Assembly: GCA_944324915.1 (NCBI GenBank)
Contig: CALUYD010000001.1
Location: 186,001 to 250,000 of the forward strand
Origin: Candidatus Gastranaerophilales bacterium
GTDB lineage: Bacteria; Cyanobacteriota; Vampirovibrionia; Gastranaerophilales; Gastranaerophilaceae
Length of the DNA: 64,000 bases
Direction: 5' to 3'
Position 1 is the stretch's first letter; every line of letters begins with the position of its first letter. Below the pieces are notes generated by a model, which was given only the letters and a program-made list of their open reading frames with translations, was not told the origin of the DNA and searched no databases. Below are positions 43,455-50,598 of this stretch, piece by piece. A program made the translations under genes and the position numbers.

Positions 43455-43472
43455 GTGTGTGAAGCCGTATAA

Positions 43473-43502
43473 AAAAGCCAAGGTGATGAGCCTTGGCTTT
43501 TT
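43473..43502 (+). terminator. pnp terminator, first copy
   Basis: AAAAGCCAAGG / CCTTGGCTTTT (11 bp, 7-base loop) and T-run. Confidence 0.9.
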
Positions 43503-43650
43503 AGGCGTAACCGTTCTATGGCGACGTAGGATAATCGAGTAAACGAACGACAGCAAAGCGATAGTGAGTTTTACGAGATACCCACAGGAGCATGCGCAAG
43601 CCGGTGCGATAACGAGCTTTTGTTGAGAAAGCGAGTTAAGCACTACGATG

Positions 43651-43694
43651 GCGACGTTTCAAATTCTTGCCGTAGGCGAATTTGACAGGAGCAA
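43651..43694 (+). repeat. 44-bp palindromic repeat, copy 1
   Basis: Direct 44-bp copy of the repeat at 43812-43855, with its own inverted arms CAAATTC ... GAATTTG and a GCC-GTA-GGC tip. It sits inside the insert after pnp. Confidence 0.85.
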
Positions 43695-43704
43695 TGGGAA
43701 TGAT

Positions 43705-43737
43705 GTAAAACCGTAGCGCGACTGCGCTAGGTTTTAC
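43705..43737 (+). repeat. Perfect imperfect-tip hairpin
   Basis: GTAAAACC and GGTTTTAC frame TAGCGC / GCGCTA around a GACT tip with a single bulged G. The compact 14-pair hairpin lies between the two copies of the 44-bp repeat and has no T-run, so it is not a terminator. Confidence 0.7.
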
Positions 43738-43811
43738 GAATGACCCTATGGTGTGTGAGCTCGTGACGGCAGAGCGTTGAGCTCTGGCGAACAGAGCGAA
43801 ACCGTACCTAA

Positions 43812-43855
43812 GCGACGTTTCAAATTCTTGCCGTAGGCGAATTTGACAGGAGCAA
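43812..43855 (+). repeat. 44-bp palindromic repeat, copy 2
   Basis: Second exact copy of the 44-bp repeat. Its end (GGAGCAA) runs directly into the duplicated pnp tail at 43851. Confidence 0.85.
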
Positions 43856-43882
43856 ACTTGAATTAAGTGTGAAGCCGTATAA

Positions 43883-43912
43883 AAAAGCCAAGGTGATGAG
43901 CCTTGGCTTTTT
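43883..43912 (+). terminator. pnp terminator, duplicated copy
   Basis: The same 11-bp hairpin and T-run as at 43473-43502. It is now far from pnp. Confidence 0.85.
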
Positions 43913-43913
43913 T

Positions 43914-44016
43914 GTCATGCTGAATTTATTTCAGCATCTTATTGATTTAAGACCCTGAAACACTCAAAAAGAACAGAAAATCACGCTTGCGCTATTTTCT
44001 AGCTAGTTCAGGGTGA
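43914..44016 (+). repeat. Palindromic element 1 (A arm, B arm with inserted hairpin)
   Basis: Arm A, GTCATGCTGAA...TTCAGCATCTTA (43914-43941), and arm B, TAAGACCCTGAAA...TTCAGGGTGAC (43948-44016), are inverted relatives, so the element opens with GTCA and closes with TGAC. Arm B is split by a 40-base insertion that forms AGAAAAT / ATTTTCT with an inner CGC / GCG stem. Confidence 0.85.
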
Positions 44017-44033
44017 CGGGATTGTTATATTTT

Positions 44034-44116
44034 GTCATGCTGAACTTGTTTCAGCATCTTACCATGTTTATTTAAGATACTATACCTATTAAGACCCTGA
44101 AACGAGTTCAGGGTGA
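44034..44116 (+). repeat. Palindromic element 2 (simple A-B pair)
   Basis: Arm A at 44034-44061 and arm B at 44090-44116, with 28 bases between. It is separated from element 1 by the linker GGGATTGTTATATTTT, which recurs between elements 2 and 3 and, nearly, between 3 and 4. Confidence 0.85.
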
Positions 44117-44132
44117 CGGGATTGTTATATTT

Positions 44133-44519
44133 GTCATGCTGAACTAGTTTCAGCATCTTACCAACTAACAAAGCTCACTTCCAATCCAGTGATAAATCTT
44201 TAAAATCGGGATTATTTTCTTTTATAAGATTTAACTTCCATTCCCTATGCCATCTTTTTAACTGTTTTTCTCTTTTAATTGCGGATTCTATTGAATCAGT
44301 TAATTCAAAGTATACTAATTTGTTAACATTATATTTATTTGTAAAACCTTTAACAACTTTATTTTTATGCTCCCAAACCCTTTTTTCTAAATTGCTTGTA
44401 ACTCCTATATACAAAGTTGTTTCAGAATAATTTGTCATTATATAAACTGCACAAGTTTTATCCATAGATTGATTATAACATATTTTAGTTTTCAGACCCT
44501 GAAACGAGTTCAGGGTGAC
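44133..44519. mobile_element. Candidate element 3: GIY-YIG gene between A and B arms
   Basis: Arm A (44133-44160) and arm B (44495-44519) are the same inverted ends as in elements 1, 2 and 4. Here they enclose the complete GIY-YIG nuclease gene (44175-44465, minus strand), with 14 bases on one side and 29 on the other. The whole is about 387 bases. This is the layout of an autonomous small mobile element with short non-autonomous relatives beside it. Movement is an inference; no target duplication is clearly visible. Confidence 0.55.
44175..44465 (-). CDS. Small GIY-YIG endonuclease
   Basis: The 96-residue nuclease-domain protein starts at ATG 44465 (MDKTCAVYIMTNYSETTLYI). A longer frame would include 25 residues that are only a reading of repeat arm B (VTLNSFQG). 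It has the GIY element as VYIMTN, YIG as LYIGVTS, the Arg in NLEKRVWEHKNK, the Glu region in KREKQLKRWHREWKL and the closing NPDFKDLSLDW. This is the single-domain UPF0213/YhbQ-like group, which cuts DNA. It is embedded in the palindromic repeat array and probably depends on it or acts on it. Confidence 0.9.
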   Translation of the reverse strand: MDKTCAVYIMTNYSETTLYIGVTSNLEKRVWEHKNKVVKGFTNKYNVNKLVYFELTDSIESAIKREKQLKRWHREWKLNLIKENNPDFKDLSLDWK

Positions 44520-44535
44520 GGGTTTGTTATGTTTT

Positions 44536-44597
44536 GTCATGCTGAACTTGATTCAGCATCTTATTAGTTTAAGACCCTGAAACGAGTTCAGGGTGAC
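44536..44597 (+). repeat. Palindromic element 4 (A-B pair, shortest)
   Basis: Arm A (44536-44563) and arm B (44570-44597) with only 6 bases between; the linker GGGTTTGTTATGTTTT precedes it. Confidence 0.85.
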
Positions 44598-44605
44598 GTT
44601 TTAGA

Positions 44606-44717
44606 TAAGACCCTGAAATGCTCAAAGAGAACAGAAAATCACGCTTGCGCTATTTTCTAGCTAGTTCAGGGTGACGGGGTCAAATTCAGGGTGACGAGTT
44701 TAAGTTCAGGATGGCGG
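44606..44717 (+). repeat. Orphan B arm with inserted hairpin and partial B ends
   Basis: 44606-44675 is a B arm split by nearly the same 40-base hairpin insertion as in element 1. It is followed by two fragments of the B end (TTCAGGGTGACG, and a mutated TTCAGGATGGCG). No matching A arm precedes it directly. Confidence 0.75.
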
Positions 44718-44767
44718 AGTAGAATTATTTCTCTTCATAGCGTCATGCTAAACTAGCTAAAAAACAG

Positions 44768-46453: not shown

Positions 46454-46792
46454 TTACTTTCTATACCAAGGTTTAAATTCTTCAATTTCATCAAATAAAT
46501 TGCAATAATCTCCTTTAAAACAAATACATCTATCATCAATATAAAGATATGAAGATAATTTTGTATTAGTTACATCTTTAAAAAATTTATCTAAATTATT
46601 ATTAATTAGCCATTTTGTTGCAAGCATTAAATTTCTTGATGTAAAAAGATATAATTCAGCTTGTTTTGATAATTTTTCTATAAATTCATAAGCTCCAATT
46701 TTAATTTCAGGAATATAATTTTCATTGAATTTATCTTTTCCATATTCATTCAAAACGCCATCTAAATCTATAAGTATTTTTTTGGTGAACAT
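46454..46792 (-). CDS. HAD-superfamily phosphatase-like protein
   Basis: I start at ATG 46792, because upstream codons run into the divergent regulator promoter. The 112-residue protein has HAD motif I KILIDLDGVLNEYG (nucleophile Asp in DLDG), motif II LFTSRN and the acidic motif YIDDRCICF. It is a minimal HAD fold without a cap, like small 5'-nucleotidases and phage-encoded phosphatases. The substrate is unknown. It is divergent from the XRE genes, so both may be controlled by the palindromes between them. Confidence 0.78.
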   Translation of the reverse strand: MFTKKILIDLDGVLNEYGKDKFNENYIPEIKIGAYEFIEKLSKQAELYLFTSRNLMLATKWLINNNLDKFFKDVTNTKLSSYLYIDDRCICFKGDYCNLFDEIEEFKPWYRK

Positions 46793-46811
46793 AAATATTA
46801 TCCTGTTATTG

Positions 46812-46846
46812 CTAGTGGTACTAGTTGAAGATATTGCTAGTATAGC
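46812..46846. promoter_or_regulatory. Two short palindromes between HAD gene and XRE genes
   Basis: CTAGT-GGT-ACTAG (46812-46824) and GCTA-GTA-TAGC (46836-46846) share a CTAGT-like half-site. They sit 14-68 bases from the starts of the divergent genes. This looks like an operator for the adjacent XRE repressor. Confidence 0.45.
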
Positions 46847-46859
46847 TAACAATTTAAAA

Positions 46860-47078
46860 ATGAACAAGTCTTTTTTGGAAAAATTAGCAAAAAGATTAAA
46901 ATATTTAAGAGAAGAAAGAAAATTAACACAAGATGATCTTGGTGTGAATGGTGTATCAAGATCAATGATTAGTTTGCTTGAACTTGCAAAAACTGATGTT
47001 ACAGTTTCTAAACTAAAAATAATTGCTGATAACTTGGGAGTTGAAGTTAAAGATTTGTTTGATTTTAGTGAAAAATAA
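46860..47078 (+). CDS. XRE-family helix-turn-helix regulator
   Basis: The 72-residue protein starts at ATG 46860 (MNKSFLEKLAKRLKYLREER). It is a bare Cro/CI HTH domain: LTQDDLGVNGVSRSMISLLELAKTDVTVSKLKIIADNLGVEVKDLF. It probably represses its own and the divergent gene. The second XRE gene starts 2 bases after its stop, so the pair are co-transcribed. Such twin small XRE genes are common in mobile or defence islands. Confidence 0.85.
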   Translation: MNKSFLEKLAKRLKYLREERKLTQDDLGVNGVSRSMISLLELAKTDVTVSKLKIIADNLGVEVKDLFDFSEK

Positions 47079-47080
47079 AT

Positions 47081-47290
47081 ATGAGCCAAGATATTAGACA
47101 AATATTAGCAAACAACATAAAAAACCTTAGAACCCAGAAAAAGTTGAAAAGAGAAGAATTATCTTTGATTTTAGGAGTTGATAATTCTTATATTTCTAAA
47201 CTTGAGAAAGGTAAAATAAATATCACTTTAGATAAAATTCAATTATTAGCTGATTATTTTGAAATAGAGGCTTATTTATTGCTAAAATAA
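47081..47290 (+). CDS. Second XRE-family helix-turn-helix regulator
   Basis: The 69-residue protein follows the previous XRE gene by 2 bases. It has an intact HTH: IKNLRTQKKLKREELSLILGVDNSYISKLEKGKINITLDKIQLLADYFEIEAY. The sequence differs enough from its partner to suggest separate targets. The target is unknown. Confidence 0.83.
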   Translation: MSQDIRQILANNIKNLRTQKKLKREELSLILGVDNSYISKLEKGKINITLDKIQLLADYFEIEAYLLLK

Positions 47291-47398: not shown

Positions 47399-47430
47399 AA
47401 CTTAAAGTATCTTACAAGATACTTTAAGTT
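47399..47430. repeat. Perfect 15-bp inverted repeat
   Basis: AACTTAAAGTATCTT and its exact reverse complement flank a 2-base centre, between the XRE genes and the AbiEi-like gene. It could be a terminator for the XRE unit, but the T-run after it is short, so a protein-binding site is also possible. Confidence 0.65.
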
Positions 47431-47458: not shown

Positions 47459-47487
47459 TTGAAAATTAATAAAAAATATGATATAAT
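47459..47487 (+). promoter_or_regulatory. Promoter of the AbiEi-like antitoxin gene
   Basis: TTGAAA (47459-47464), a 17-base spacer and TATAAT (47482-47487). The -10 box overlaps the left end of a 26-bp perfect palindrome. Confidence 0.75.
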
Positions 47488-47510
47488 TGGTATTATACAT
47501 AATACCAATT
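47485..47510. promoter_or_regulatory. 26-bp perfect palindrome, likely autoregulatory operator
   Basis: AATTGGTATTAT - AC - ATAATACCAATT overlaps the -10 box and probable start point and ends 7 bases before the AbiEi-like ATG. AbiEi antitoxins are known to repress their own promoter by binding inverted repeats. Confidence 0.7.
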
Positions 47511-47517
47511 ATCTAAA

Positions 47518-48408
47518 ATGAAAAACACAAGCGCACAATTAAAAATGGAAAAAAATAGAGAAAACATCCTCTCTTTTTTTAATACTAATGCCCATTTTTA
47601 TTACATAAAAGAATTACGCCAATTTTATAACGAAAGCATCAATAAGAAATTTATCTACCCTAGTACCACATTTAATGCATTTTTAAAATTTTTACTTAAC
47701 AATAAAATTTATGAAGATAAAATTATTTTCAATTTTCCTTCAAAAAAATATACTAGGTATTTTGTAAAAACGCCTAACCTTTTTGAAGCTATTCAAAGTA
47801 TAAGCACCAAAGCATATTTTAGCCACTACACCGCAGTTGAATATCACAACCTAACAAACAATTTGCCGAAAACAATTTTTATAAATATTGAAAAATCTAA
47901 ACCGTTAAAGGAAGTTACTAAAAAAAGCCTATCGCAAGAAGAAATAAATAAGGCTTTTTATATGCCACCAAGAATAAGCAAAAATTTAACAATAAAAGGT
48001 ATTTATACTATAAACCTCCTACAAAGCAAATATAGTAACAATCTAGGAATTATAAATACTAATTACCACAATATAAATATAAACATAACGAATATTGAAA
48101 GAACACTAATAGACATAACCGTTAGTCCTTATTATTGCGGTGGCTGTTATGAAGTTCTAAATGCATATAAAAAAGCTAAAGGCAGAGTAAATATAAAAAA
48201 AATGCACGAAATACTTTTAAAATTAGATTACATATATCCGCATCATCAAGCTATCGGTTTTTATTTAGAAAAAGCCGGGTACTCAGAAAAAGATTTAAGT
48301 TTTTTTGATTATAACAAAAATCTACGTTTTTTTATTCAACGTGAATTAAAAGAAAAAAATAGAAAATATAGTGAACGTTGGAATTTATTTTACCCAGAAT
48401 TCTTCTAA
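47518..48408 (+). CDS. AbiEi-like antitoxin / transcriptional regulator
   Basis: The 296-residue protein resembles the AbiEi antitoxin family of type IV toxin-antitoxin systems. The first 80 residues look like a winged helix for DNA binding. The middle has AYFSHYTAVEYHNLTNNLPKTIFI and, later, ITNIERTLIDITVSPYYCGGCYEVLNAYKKA, which is the typical AbiEi C-terminal core (sheltered Thr-Leu-Ile-Asp and Gly-Gly). The predicted role is to oppose AbiEii and repress transcription. A near-perfect promoter with an overlapping palindrome lies just upstream. It has no visible Shine-Dalgarno sequence. The 3' end overlaps the toxin gene by 24 bases, in convergent orientation. Confidence 0.8.
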   Translation: MKNTSAQLKMEKNRENILSFFNTNAHFYYIKELRQFYNESINKKFIYPSTTFNAFLKFLLNNKIYEDKIIFNFPSKKYTRYFVKTPNLFEAIQSISTKAYFSHYTAVEYHNLTNNLPKTIFINIEKSKPLKEVTKKSLSQEEINKAFYMPPRISKNLTIKGIYTINLLQSKYSNNLGIINTNYHNININITNIERTLIDITVSPYYCGGCYEVLNAYKKAKGRVNIKKMHEILLKLDYIYPHHQAIGFYLEKAGYSEKDLSFFDYNKNLRFFIQRELKEKNRKYSERWNLFYPEFF

Positions 48409-49266
48409 ATCAGCTACTATATCTAATACATATTCAAAATAGTAATCAAAAATAGCAGGATGTCTTTTTGAAAATACATCTGTCAAAAGTACATTTTGAA
48501 AATCATCTTCATGAATTTGCCTTTTTTCTTTTATTTTTAATAGCAAGTTTAAATCTACATTTTTAGCATTAAAAACTTGTCTTAAAAGTTCTCTATTTTC
48601 CAACTTTTTAAAATCTACCTTTAATAAATTTTCAGAAACAAGATAAATATCATAAAAATCTCTTGATCTCGGCAAATCAATATCTTCGAATTTATTTCTA
48701 TATTCTTTCATTTTTTGACAAATTGCTCTTAATTTTTCACAAATTAACATTTGTGGAGGATAAACAAATATTTTAAATTCATCAATTTCCTTTATTTCTT
48801 TATTATCAACAAATTCGTATTTACTTATATCAATTACAAAATCCTTTTTATTTGATTGTCCCAAAGATATAGCACGATTTCTTAGTTGATTAATATCATT
48901 ACAATATTTTTTATAAAGTTCAAATGAAATTAATTTAAAACTTAAATTATAACCTGACATCTTTATGTCTTTTGGCAAATCTATAGGTTTATCTTTTATT
49001 TTAAAATCAAAAACATAATAACCTTTTTCATTAAAAATATTATTAAAATTTTTAGGCAAATTATTTAAAATTTGTTCTCTCTCTTTATTTGAAAATTCAT
49101 CTTTAATAGAAAAATCAATGTCCTTCGAAGAACGAGAATGAATTTTATACGCTAATTCCAAGCATGTACCACCCTTTAAAACAAGTTTATTCATTAATGT
49201 ATCATTGGATACAATTGATTTTAAAATTAATTTTTTAATTCTTAAAAACTCGTCACCGCTAATCAT
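48385..49266 (-). CDS. AbiEii-like nucleotidyltransferase toxin
   Basis: The 293-residue protein has the nucleotidyltransferase start LVLKGGTCLELAYKIHSRSSKDIDFSI (GGT at 32-34; DxD at 49-51), then YPPQMLICEKLRAICQKMKEYRNKFEDIDLPRSRDFYDIYLVSE, the fixed second half of the AbiEii/AbiGii family. Relatives in type IV systems modify tRNA ends or other targets and stop growth. It is transcribed towards the antitoxin gene, whereas characterised AbiE systems are single operons. Two small XRE genes and a HAD gene lie beyond the antitoxin. Confidence 0.85.
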   Translation of the reverse strand: MISGDEFLRIKKLILKSIVSNDTLMNKLVLKGGTCLELAYKIHSRSSKDIDFSIKDEFSNKEREQILNNLPKNFNNIFNEKGYYVFDFKIKDKPIDLPKDIKMSGYNLSFKLISFELYKKYCNDINQLRNRAISLGQSNKKDFVIDISKYEFVDNKEIKEIDEFKIFVYPPQMLICEKLRAICQKMKEYRNKFEDIDLPRSRDFYDIYLVSENLLKVDFKKLENRELLRQVFNAKNVDLNLLLKIKEKRQIHEDDFQNVLLTDVFSKRHPAIFDYYFEYVLDIVADLEEFWVK

Positions 49267-49335
49267 ATTCTAACTATTTCACCAATATTAACTAGTATTT
49301 ATTATTATCAACTAACCTCAATATTAAAACAATTT

Positions 49336-50598
49336 TTAAATTTTTGAATTTTCCAACAACTTTTCAACTACACCCTTAAGAGCGATTTTAACATGAAAAT
49401 AGCTCAAACCGCCCTGCATATAAATTGCCCAAGGGGCTCTTGTAGGGCCGTCTGCGGATAATTCAATGGTTGAGCCTTCAATAAAACTTCCCCCTGCCAT
49501 TAATAAATTACAATCATACCCGGGAACTGTATCAGGTATTGGGGTTAAGTAACTTTCAACAGGTGAAAATCTTTGAATCATTGAACAAAAATGTTGCTGT
49601 TCTTTTTCATTATTAAATTGAATTGTTTGAATTAAATCTGTTCTTTTGGCGCTTGATGATGGGAATGTTGTAAAACCCATATCTTCAAAAACTTTAGCAG
49701 CTAAAATCGCCCCCCTATGCGCATTTGAAGTAATAGAAGGCGCCATAAAAAAGCCTTGCAACATAACTCTTGTTTGATTATGCATAGCACCGCCCTCTGC
49801 GCCAATTCCGGGGGCAGTTAAGCGTCTTGCTGCCATATCAACATATTTTTTCTTGCCTAAAATATAACCGCCTGCTTCAACTATACCGCCACCAGGGTTT
49901 TTAATCAGACTGCCTGCGATTAAATCTGCTCCAACTTCAGTTGGCTCTAGTTTTTCAACAAATTCACCATAACAATTATCCACAAAACAACAAATATCAG
50001 GATTTTTTGCTTTGACTATTTTAATAATTCGCTCTATATCAGCTATATTAAGAGGTTTTCTTAAAGAATATCCTCTTGAGCGCTGTATTAATACCATTTT
50101 AGTATCATCTAAAAGATATTTTTCAATATTTTCATAATCAACTTCAACGCCATTTTTTAAAGGAATTTCGCTATATTTAACCCCATGACCCATTAAACTT
50201 GAGTCAAAATCATCGCAATTAGGGCGTGAACCTATGATTTGCTGCATTGTGTCATAAGGTTCTCCTGCAATAGAAACAAGTCTATCGCCATATCTTAAAA
50301 CGCCAAATAAAGCGCATGCTATGGTGTGTGAGCCTGATACAAAATGAGGTCTTACAATTGCTGCTTCTGCCCTAAAAGCATCAGCAAAAACCTTATCTAG
50401 GGCATCTCTACCTATATCATCATGCCCGTAGCCTGTAACTGTATAAAAATGTTCTTCGCCAATTTTATTATTATAAAAAGCATCTAGGACTTTTTTTTGG
50501 TTATATTCTGTTATTTCATCAATTTCATTAAATGTTTCAAATAAAGATTTATGAGCATTATCTACGATTTCAGAGGCTTTAATTTTAAGATTTTCCAT
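49336..50598 (-). CDS. PLP-dependent enzyme, methionine gamma-lyase-like (aluminium-resistance family)
   Basis: The 420-residue protein is a fold-type I PLP enzyme. HFVSGSHTIACALFGVLRYGDRLVSIAGEPYDTM shows the PLP-phosphate region. CCFVDNCYGEFVE supplies the ring-stacking Asp, and the Schiff-base Lys lies in LIAGSLIKNPGGGIVEAGGYI. Database relatives are named methionine gamma-lyase family or aluminium resistance protein; the true substrate is not settled, and cysteine/methionine-like sulfur compounds are likely. It has no operon partner. Confidence 0.88.
   Translation of the reverse strand: MENLKIKASEIVDNAHKSLFETFNEIDEITEYNQKKVLDAFYNNKIGEEHFYTVTGYGHDDIGRDALDKVFADAFRAEAAIVRPHFVSGSHTIACALFGVLRYGDRLVSIAGEPYDTMQQIIGSRPNCDDFDSSLMGHGVKYSEIPLKNGVEVDYENIEKYLLDDTKMVLIQRSRGYSLRKPLNIADIERIIKIVKAKNPDICCFVDNCYGEFVEKLEPTEVGADLIAGSLIKNPGGGIVEAGGYILGKKKYVDMAARRLTAPGIGAEGGAMHNQTRVMLQGFFMAPSITSNAHRGAILAAKVFEDMGFTTFPSSSAKRTDLIQTIQFNNEKEQQHFCSMIQRFSPVESYLTPIPDTVPGYDCNLLMAGGSFIEGSTIELSADGPTRAPWAIYMQGGLSYFHVKIALKGVVEKLLENSKI

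Follow-up and report, generated by a model that had tools for sequence, protein, structure and literature searches.

Can a toxin and an antitoxin of the AbiE families work as a pair when their genes do not share an operon? In textbook toxin-antitoxin (TA) logic, one antitoxin-controlled promoter serves both genes, so that loss of the antitoxin raises both products. The question is posed by a stretch of 64,000 nt (hereafter the window, to whose positions all coordinates refer), in which genes of the two AbiE families lie tail to tail:

47518-48408, plus strand: AbiEi-family antitoxin gene, ATG start, 296 aa (ORF list; PADLOC AbiEi, 4.8e-19)
48385-49266, minus strand: AbiEii nucleotidyltransferase toxin gene, intact, ATG start, 293 aa (Pfam AbiEii; invariant motif columns)
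48385-48408, no strand: tail-to-tail overlap of the two coding sequences, 24 nt (ORF list)

The ORF list reproduces exactly the reading frames, strands and 24-base tail-to-tail overlap given in a preliminary description of this locus, and the family names proposed there (AbiEi-like and AbiEii-like) proved right in profile searches. Each gene is present once in the 1.8-Mb genome. In each case treated by Dy et al., the regulator gene precedes the nucleotidyltransferase gene, and in the operon form of AbiE the antitoxin represses both genes (PMC3985639). Here, toxin and antitoxin are on opposite strands, which excludes a single operon; instead of a bicistronic operon with the antitoxin first, the locus is convergent with a 24-nt tail overlap. 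As the proteins belong to the AbiE families but the operon feature is missing, we have classed the locus as an AbiE variant.

Two AbiE-family proteins

The window toxin matches the Pfam AbiEii model at 1.3e-26 (94.5 bits, cut-off 22.5), and the model also recognizes the toxins of 21/21 clade members. Its motifs GG, RxSxDxD, EKxRA and RxxDxxDI, assigned to published motifs by spacing and by eye (with their meaning taken from PMC3985639), hold residues that are invariant across the 21 aligned members (G32, G33, R45, D49, D51, K178, R180, D203 and D206), and S47 is invariant as well. The locus thus possesses one hallmark of AbiE, an AbiEii/DUF1814 nucleotidyltransferase with intact motif residues, and we infer that the toxin would be an active enzyme of this type. 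The toxin-clade profile also finds the solved AbiGII chain 9hlo_B (3.4e-8).

The antitoxin is recognized at 4.8e-19 by its best PADLOC AbiEi model, and such models match the antitoxins of 21/21 clade members. Pfam AbiEi_1 scores the window antitoxin at 0.26, under the cut-off, and matches just four of the 21; the antitoxin-clade profile yields weak matches to 9hlo_A and to the solved AbiEi 6y8q (E 0.014 each). In AbiE, a type IV TA system, the antitoxin (COG5340) combines an N-terminal winged HTH with a C-terminal domain and neutralizes the toxin without binding it stably. PADLOC models recognize both proteins, but more weakly than their tandem enterobacterial counterparts (e.g., PDLC02306 gives 77 bits for the window toxin vs. 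330 and 343 bits for the enterobacterial toxins), and neither protein was matched above cut-off in NCBIfam. Structure prediction was poor for the toxin (mean pLDDT 47.0) and gave an antitoxin model (50.8) too poor for a fold test. The family assignments suggest that AbiEi would neutralize the AbiEii nucleotidyltransferase. A type I TA system (a small toxic peptide countered by an antisense RNA) was considered and rejected, both partners being conserved proteins of about 290 aa.

Relatives within the family and the phylum

Among 288 genomes of the same family, the toxin has a match at E<=0.001 in 12 and the antitoxin in six, these six (the window's own genome included) being the same six that carry a strong toxin match. 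The pair is convergent in all five other genomes, so that all six strong same-family pairs share this arrangement, which is not due to chance. The three relatives whose toxin is intact and lies on a single contig likewise have a 24-nt overlap; in G210 the toxin is divided between two contig ends, and in G087 (locus L026) the toxin is broken next to an open antitoxin gene. Identity to the window proteins is 74-75% for the antitoxins of the five relatives and 67-69% for the toxins. Wherever dS could be computed, dN/dS was 0.06-0.23 for both genes, indicating purifying selection; for the window antitoxin against its relatives dS is saturated and the ratio is not computable.

The remaining six toxin matches are weak. 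Five belong to a different, tandem pair (L008-L012) whose first gene is of the DUF6088 type, as tested in L008, and the sixth (L013) is without an AbiE pair; the ordinary gene order is therefore also present in this bacterial family. Integrase-like genes adjoin several of these tandem DUF6088-AbiEii pairs, as judged by eye.

Beyond these genomes, the 19 other listed genomes of the same genus have no match, and a scan of genome contigs returned only the five same-family genomes already known, the relatives including gut genomes of Candidatus Gastranaerophilales. A genome of another family of the phylum (G354, locus L034) carries a convergent pair, again with a 24-nt overlap. A second draw from the phylum, searched with a profile of 21 toxins, gave matches in three of 385 genomes (G354, G065 and G181). 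In a search for an empty insertion site at 21 same-genus loci around the gene at 49336-50598, the window's other flank was seen in none within 1,500 nt.

Plasmid relatives, alignment and trees

A tblastn search of plasmids with the G354 proteins yielded 38 records for the toxin and 84 for the antitoxin (60 of the 84 listed). Among the matches listed, 19 of the 38 toxin records are convergent with an antitoxin gene, 16 divergent, none tandem and three without a partner; an antitoxin gene thus adjoins the toxin in at least 35 of 38, many of these paired records being near copies (e.g., four from Riemerella and six from S. suis), so that they count neither as independent nor as events. Four scans of viral contigs and the phage records contained no relatives. 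The 20 toxin-bearing plasmid regions that were fetched come from Bacillota, Bacteroidota, Pseudomonadota and Planctomycetota, and the branch occurs on chromosomes as well as on plasmids. The neighboring antitoxin in these 20 regions is annotated as a 'hypothetical protein' in 18 (split in one of them) and as AbiEi in one, and is absent from one.

These data bear on an alternative in which an AbiEi-like regulator merely stands beside an AbiEii-like enzyme, either as no TA pair at all or as a decaying remnant. The broken toxin of G087 fits such decay, and a broken toxin beside an open antitoxin would also agree with the toxin being the harmful one of the two. The association on plasmids (at least 35 of the 38 toxin records, among the matches listed), the purifying selection seen for both genes in the computable comparisons and the invariance of the catalytic residues in 21 members all speak against this alternative, which we regard as very improbable.

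For alignment, we assembled 24 pairs (18 convergent, four divergent and two tandem outgroups), excluding from the fetched plasmids a broken toxin of L. plantarum, a partnerless remnant of P. terrae and an L. capsici copy with a split antitoxin. Two of the plasmid loci are of interest in themselves. In L. plantarum (L047), a split or broken toxin gene lies beside an open antitoxin gene. On the Lysinibacillus capsici plasmid (L054) the module occurs twice; a group II intron gene lies upstream of each copy, the toxin is split in one of them and the antitoxin, per annotation, in both.

In both protein trees, the 22 non-tandem rows lie together on one side of a branch with 100/100 support. The four divergent rows, in which 147-210 nt separate the genes, group together (support 95/92 for the toxin and 94/91 for the antitoxin), with the convergent P. 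citreus as their sister. With an outgroup of just two distant tandem loci, the simplest history suggested by these trees would start from an ancient convergent form and include a single change to the divergent one; a closer tandem relative could exist outside the searched collections.

A survey of other genomes for the convergent form had been proposed with the preliminary description, and its outcome is positive: five same-family genomes, G354 and plasmids of four phyla share the layout. The same description had named a recent rearrangement with loss of function as evidence against its proposal. Tandem AbiE loci are indeed known in other bacteria and a different tandem pair is present in this family, which makes it conceivable that one gene of an ordinary operon was recently inverted. 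Nevertheless, the layout recurs at 27-42% identity across several phyla, the non-tandem rows unite in both trees, and no close relatives in tandem order were found in the searched collections; we consider a recent inversion to be exceedingly improbable.

Palindromes on the antitoxin side

The region upstream of the antitoxin gene contains a strong promoter match and two long palindromes:

47399-47430, no strand: distal palindrome, second candidate AbiEi operator, 15-nt arms and 2-nt gap; kept in five relatives
47459-47464, plus strand: -35 element of the antitoxin promoter, TTGAAA; best promoter match of the stretch, 11/12
47482-47487, plus strand: -10 element of the antitoxin promoter, TATAAT with TG upstream; kept in five relatives
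47483-47512, no strand: proximal palindrome, candidate AbiEi operator, 14-nt arms and 2-nt gap

The promoter match (TTGAAA-17-TATAAT, 47459-47487) was equalled by none of 100 shuffles. The proximal palindrome overlaps its -10 element and ends 6 nt 5' of the antitoxin ATG, and in the relatives it shows a symmetric, paired base change in both arms. A pattern covering both palindrome cores has exactly two sites in the 1.8-Mb genome, both 5' of the antitoxin (the reversed control has none). Two adjacent small genes of the HTH_3 (Cro/C1) type stand in tandem at 46725-47290, just 5' of these palindromes.

For each gene of the aligned loci, we have scanned the upstream 200 nt together with 30 nt of the gene itself for perfect inverted repeats (arms >=11 nt, gap <=2). 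Palindromes are present on the antitoxin side in 17 of the 18 convergent loci, the exception being Phycisphaera, and on the toxin side in none of the 18, against six of 780 control tiles taken elsewhere in the same loci. Most convergent loci have two repeats on the antitoxin side, and a palindrome core, GTATATATAC, is common to several Bacillota members and G354. A laxer scan (arms of 9) added a single toxin-side repeat, GC-rich, in Phycisphaera. In each of the 17 convergent rows that have a palindrome on the antitoxin side, 32 or more of 200 shuffles equalled the best match to the operator core upstream of the toxin. All four divergent loci have palindromes in their common promoter region, counted on both sides because the intergenic region is common to both genes, and the two tandem outgroup loci also carry them 5' of the antitoxin.

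Inverted repeats are present and conserved at the antitoxin promoter, and they fit the operators of this type known for AbiEi of S. agalactiae and for Rv2827c (PMC7319586). The long palindromes are likely AbiEi operators, and this anatomy, as read from the sequence, suggests that AbiEi would bind them and repress its own promoter. Joint autoregulation of both genes appears to be missing, by anatomy alone, from the convergent loci (toxin-side palindromes in 0/18). The earlier proposal, which places the toxin outside the autoregulation exerted by the antitoxin, is accordingly in keeping with the predicted operator map.

Expression of the toxin

The toxin side is a short interval behind another gene:

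49267-49335, minus strand: upstream gap of the toxin gene, 69 nt, without a palindrome; contains TGAAATAGT

In the five relatives, TGCTATAAT lies about 10 nt 5' of the toxin ATG, of which TGAAATAGT in the window is a degenerate form; the conservation of TGCTATAAT is weak evidence, since these relatives are close to one another. The gene at 49336-50598 has the same direction as the toxin and lies 69 nt upstream of it. No terminator was found between the two, so that read-through into the window toxin is possible, and the promoter match on the toxin side of the window is no better than in shuffles. On plasmids, the gene annotated upstream of the toxin faces away from the toxin in six loci, making a separate toxin promoter likely there. 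The claim of the preliminary description that the toxin would have a promoter of its own is thus not borne out in the window and is probably correct for those six plasmid loci.

These features invite a tentative alternative, in which the window toxin would have no promoter of its own, would share a transcription unit with the gene at 49336-50598, as its second gene, and would thereby escape AbiEi control. The shared direction, the 69-nt gap, the failure to find a terminator and the shuffle-level promoter score are all compatible with it; the six other members whose upstream gene faces away from the toxin, and the TGCTATAAT element 5' of the toxin ATG in the five relatives (degenerate in the window), are not what it would lead one to expect. 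On balance, we consider it somewhat unlikely.

The overlapping gene ends

Across the 18 convergent rows, the genes overlap by 24 nt in eight and by 4-49 nt in 17, Phycisphaera having an 8-nt gap; both the length and the frame of the overlap vary over the clade. The idea that the exact 24 nt is a conserved and meaningful length was dropped because the spacing ranges from this 8-nt gap to the 49-nt overlap. The tight spacing in several phyla could nevertheless mean that convergent transcription is itself a form of control, with polymerase collision or 3'-end pairing letting antitoxin transcription damp the toxin, and the two transcripts of the window may indeed collide, as no intrinsic terminator was found around the pair. 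Such control is rather unlikely, in our estimate, given that overlap length and frame are unconserved and that the divergent sister form keeps both genes without a tail overlap; variable overlaps and a divergent branch imply that an antisense effect is not essential to the clade as a whole. Still more doubtful is a two-layer hybrid, in which AbiEi would neutralize the toxin and repress its own gene only, a cis-acting RNA layer would operate through the overlapping ends, and the clade would have switched between convergent and divergent wirings.

A probable non-operonic branch of AbiE

The reading that we favor, at a probability of roughly 0.7, is that this locus represents a widespread non-operonic branch of AbiE, in which AbiEi would neutralize AbiEii and repress its own promoter through the palindromes while the toxin stays outside the operator. 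It starts from gene identity, layout, conservation and palindrome asymmetry, all of them observed. The putative toxicity of the AbiEii nucleotidyltransferase would be countered by AbiEi, and repression of the antitoxin promoter would follow from AbiEi binding to the long palindromes 5' of its own gene. The toxin would be transcribed from the opposite end, free of the AbiEi operator. With no operator at the toxin, only the antitoxin gene would be derepressed if the antitoxin level fell, which would act as a corrective loop. The toxin might then prevail only once antitoxin synthesis ceases altogether, for example through plasmid loss or a phage that shuts down its host. In the divergent wiring, both genes could be controllable through common operators; in the convergent one, the antitoxin could control only itself.

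Among known systems, the AbiE of S. agalactiae resembles the window pair in having an AbiEii (DUF1814) toxin whose motif residues are of the same kind, in its COG5340-type antitoxin (PMC3985639) and in the inverted repeats at the antitoxin-side promoter (PMC7319586). It differs in being an operon with the antitoxin first, a 4-nt overlap and repression of both genes by AbiEi (PMC3985639), whereas the window pair is convergent, with palindromes on the antitoxin side alone. The Rv2827c-Rv2826c pair of M. tuberculosis shares an AbiEi-type antitoxin and several promoter inverted repeats, likened here by description, but forms an operon under the repeat-bearing promoter (PMC7319586). In Rv1044-Rv1045 (TakA-TglT), the toxin is also of the DUF1814 type and its phosphorylated S78 (in RTSKDFD; the TakA target) aligns by eye with S47 of the window toxin, although the two genes form an operon with a 3-nt overlap (PMC7205606). 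Finally, AbiEi-AbiEii-PP2C loci of enterobacteria (E. coli pDW54_3 and Providencia pPROV099-NR3) have the same two families and palindromes 5' of the antitoxin, but in tandem order and with a third, phosphatase gene. A search of the open-licence literature, with subscription papers mostly outside its reach, found no description of a convergent or divergent AbiE.

By its anatomy, the clade departs in several phyla from the assumption of a single shared promoter. The convergent and divergent wirings of the same two proteins offer a natural test of whether a TA module, plasmid addiction or phage defence requires joint autoregulation. The clade is also a matter of annotation, the partner antitoxin of its toxins being mostly labelled 'hypothetical protein' on plasmids.

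Other loci and the wider neighborhood

Two enterobacterial plasmid loci (L058:1489-3945 and L061:227-2679) contain tandem AbiEi and AbiEii genes followed by a gene for a PP2C-type phosphatase, annotated in both and matching Pfam PP2C at 3.4e-6 in L058. A phosphatase reversing toxin phosphorylation has been postulated (PMC7205606), for which this third gene is a candidate. On plasmids of Aliarcobacter and Sulfurimonas (L059:944-3277 and L060:933-3280), an AbiEi-like gene is divergent to a gene for a HipA-family toxin, and no AbiEii is annotated in either stretch. PADLOC AbiEi models match the AbiEi-like protein in L060 (2.1e-9) and leave that of L059 unmatched at 1e-5; the pairing is possibly a partner swap. 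Within the window, a dense family of intergenic repeats occupies 43457-44724, one repeat entering the 5' end of a GIY-YIG ORF (44175-44540), and similar pieces are also found in a same-genus genome (L069).
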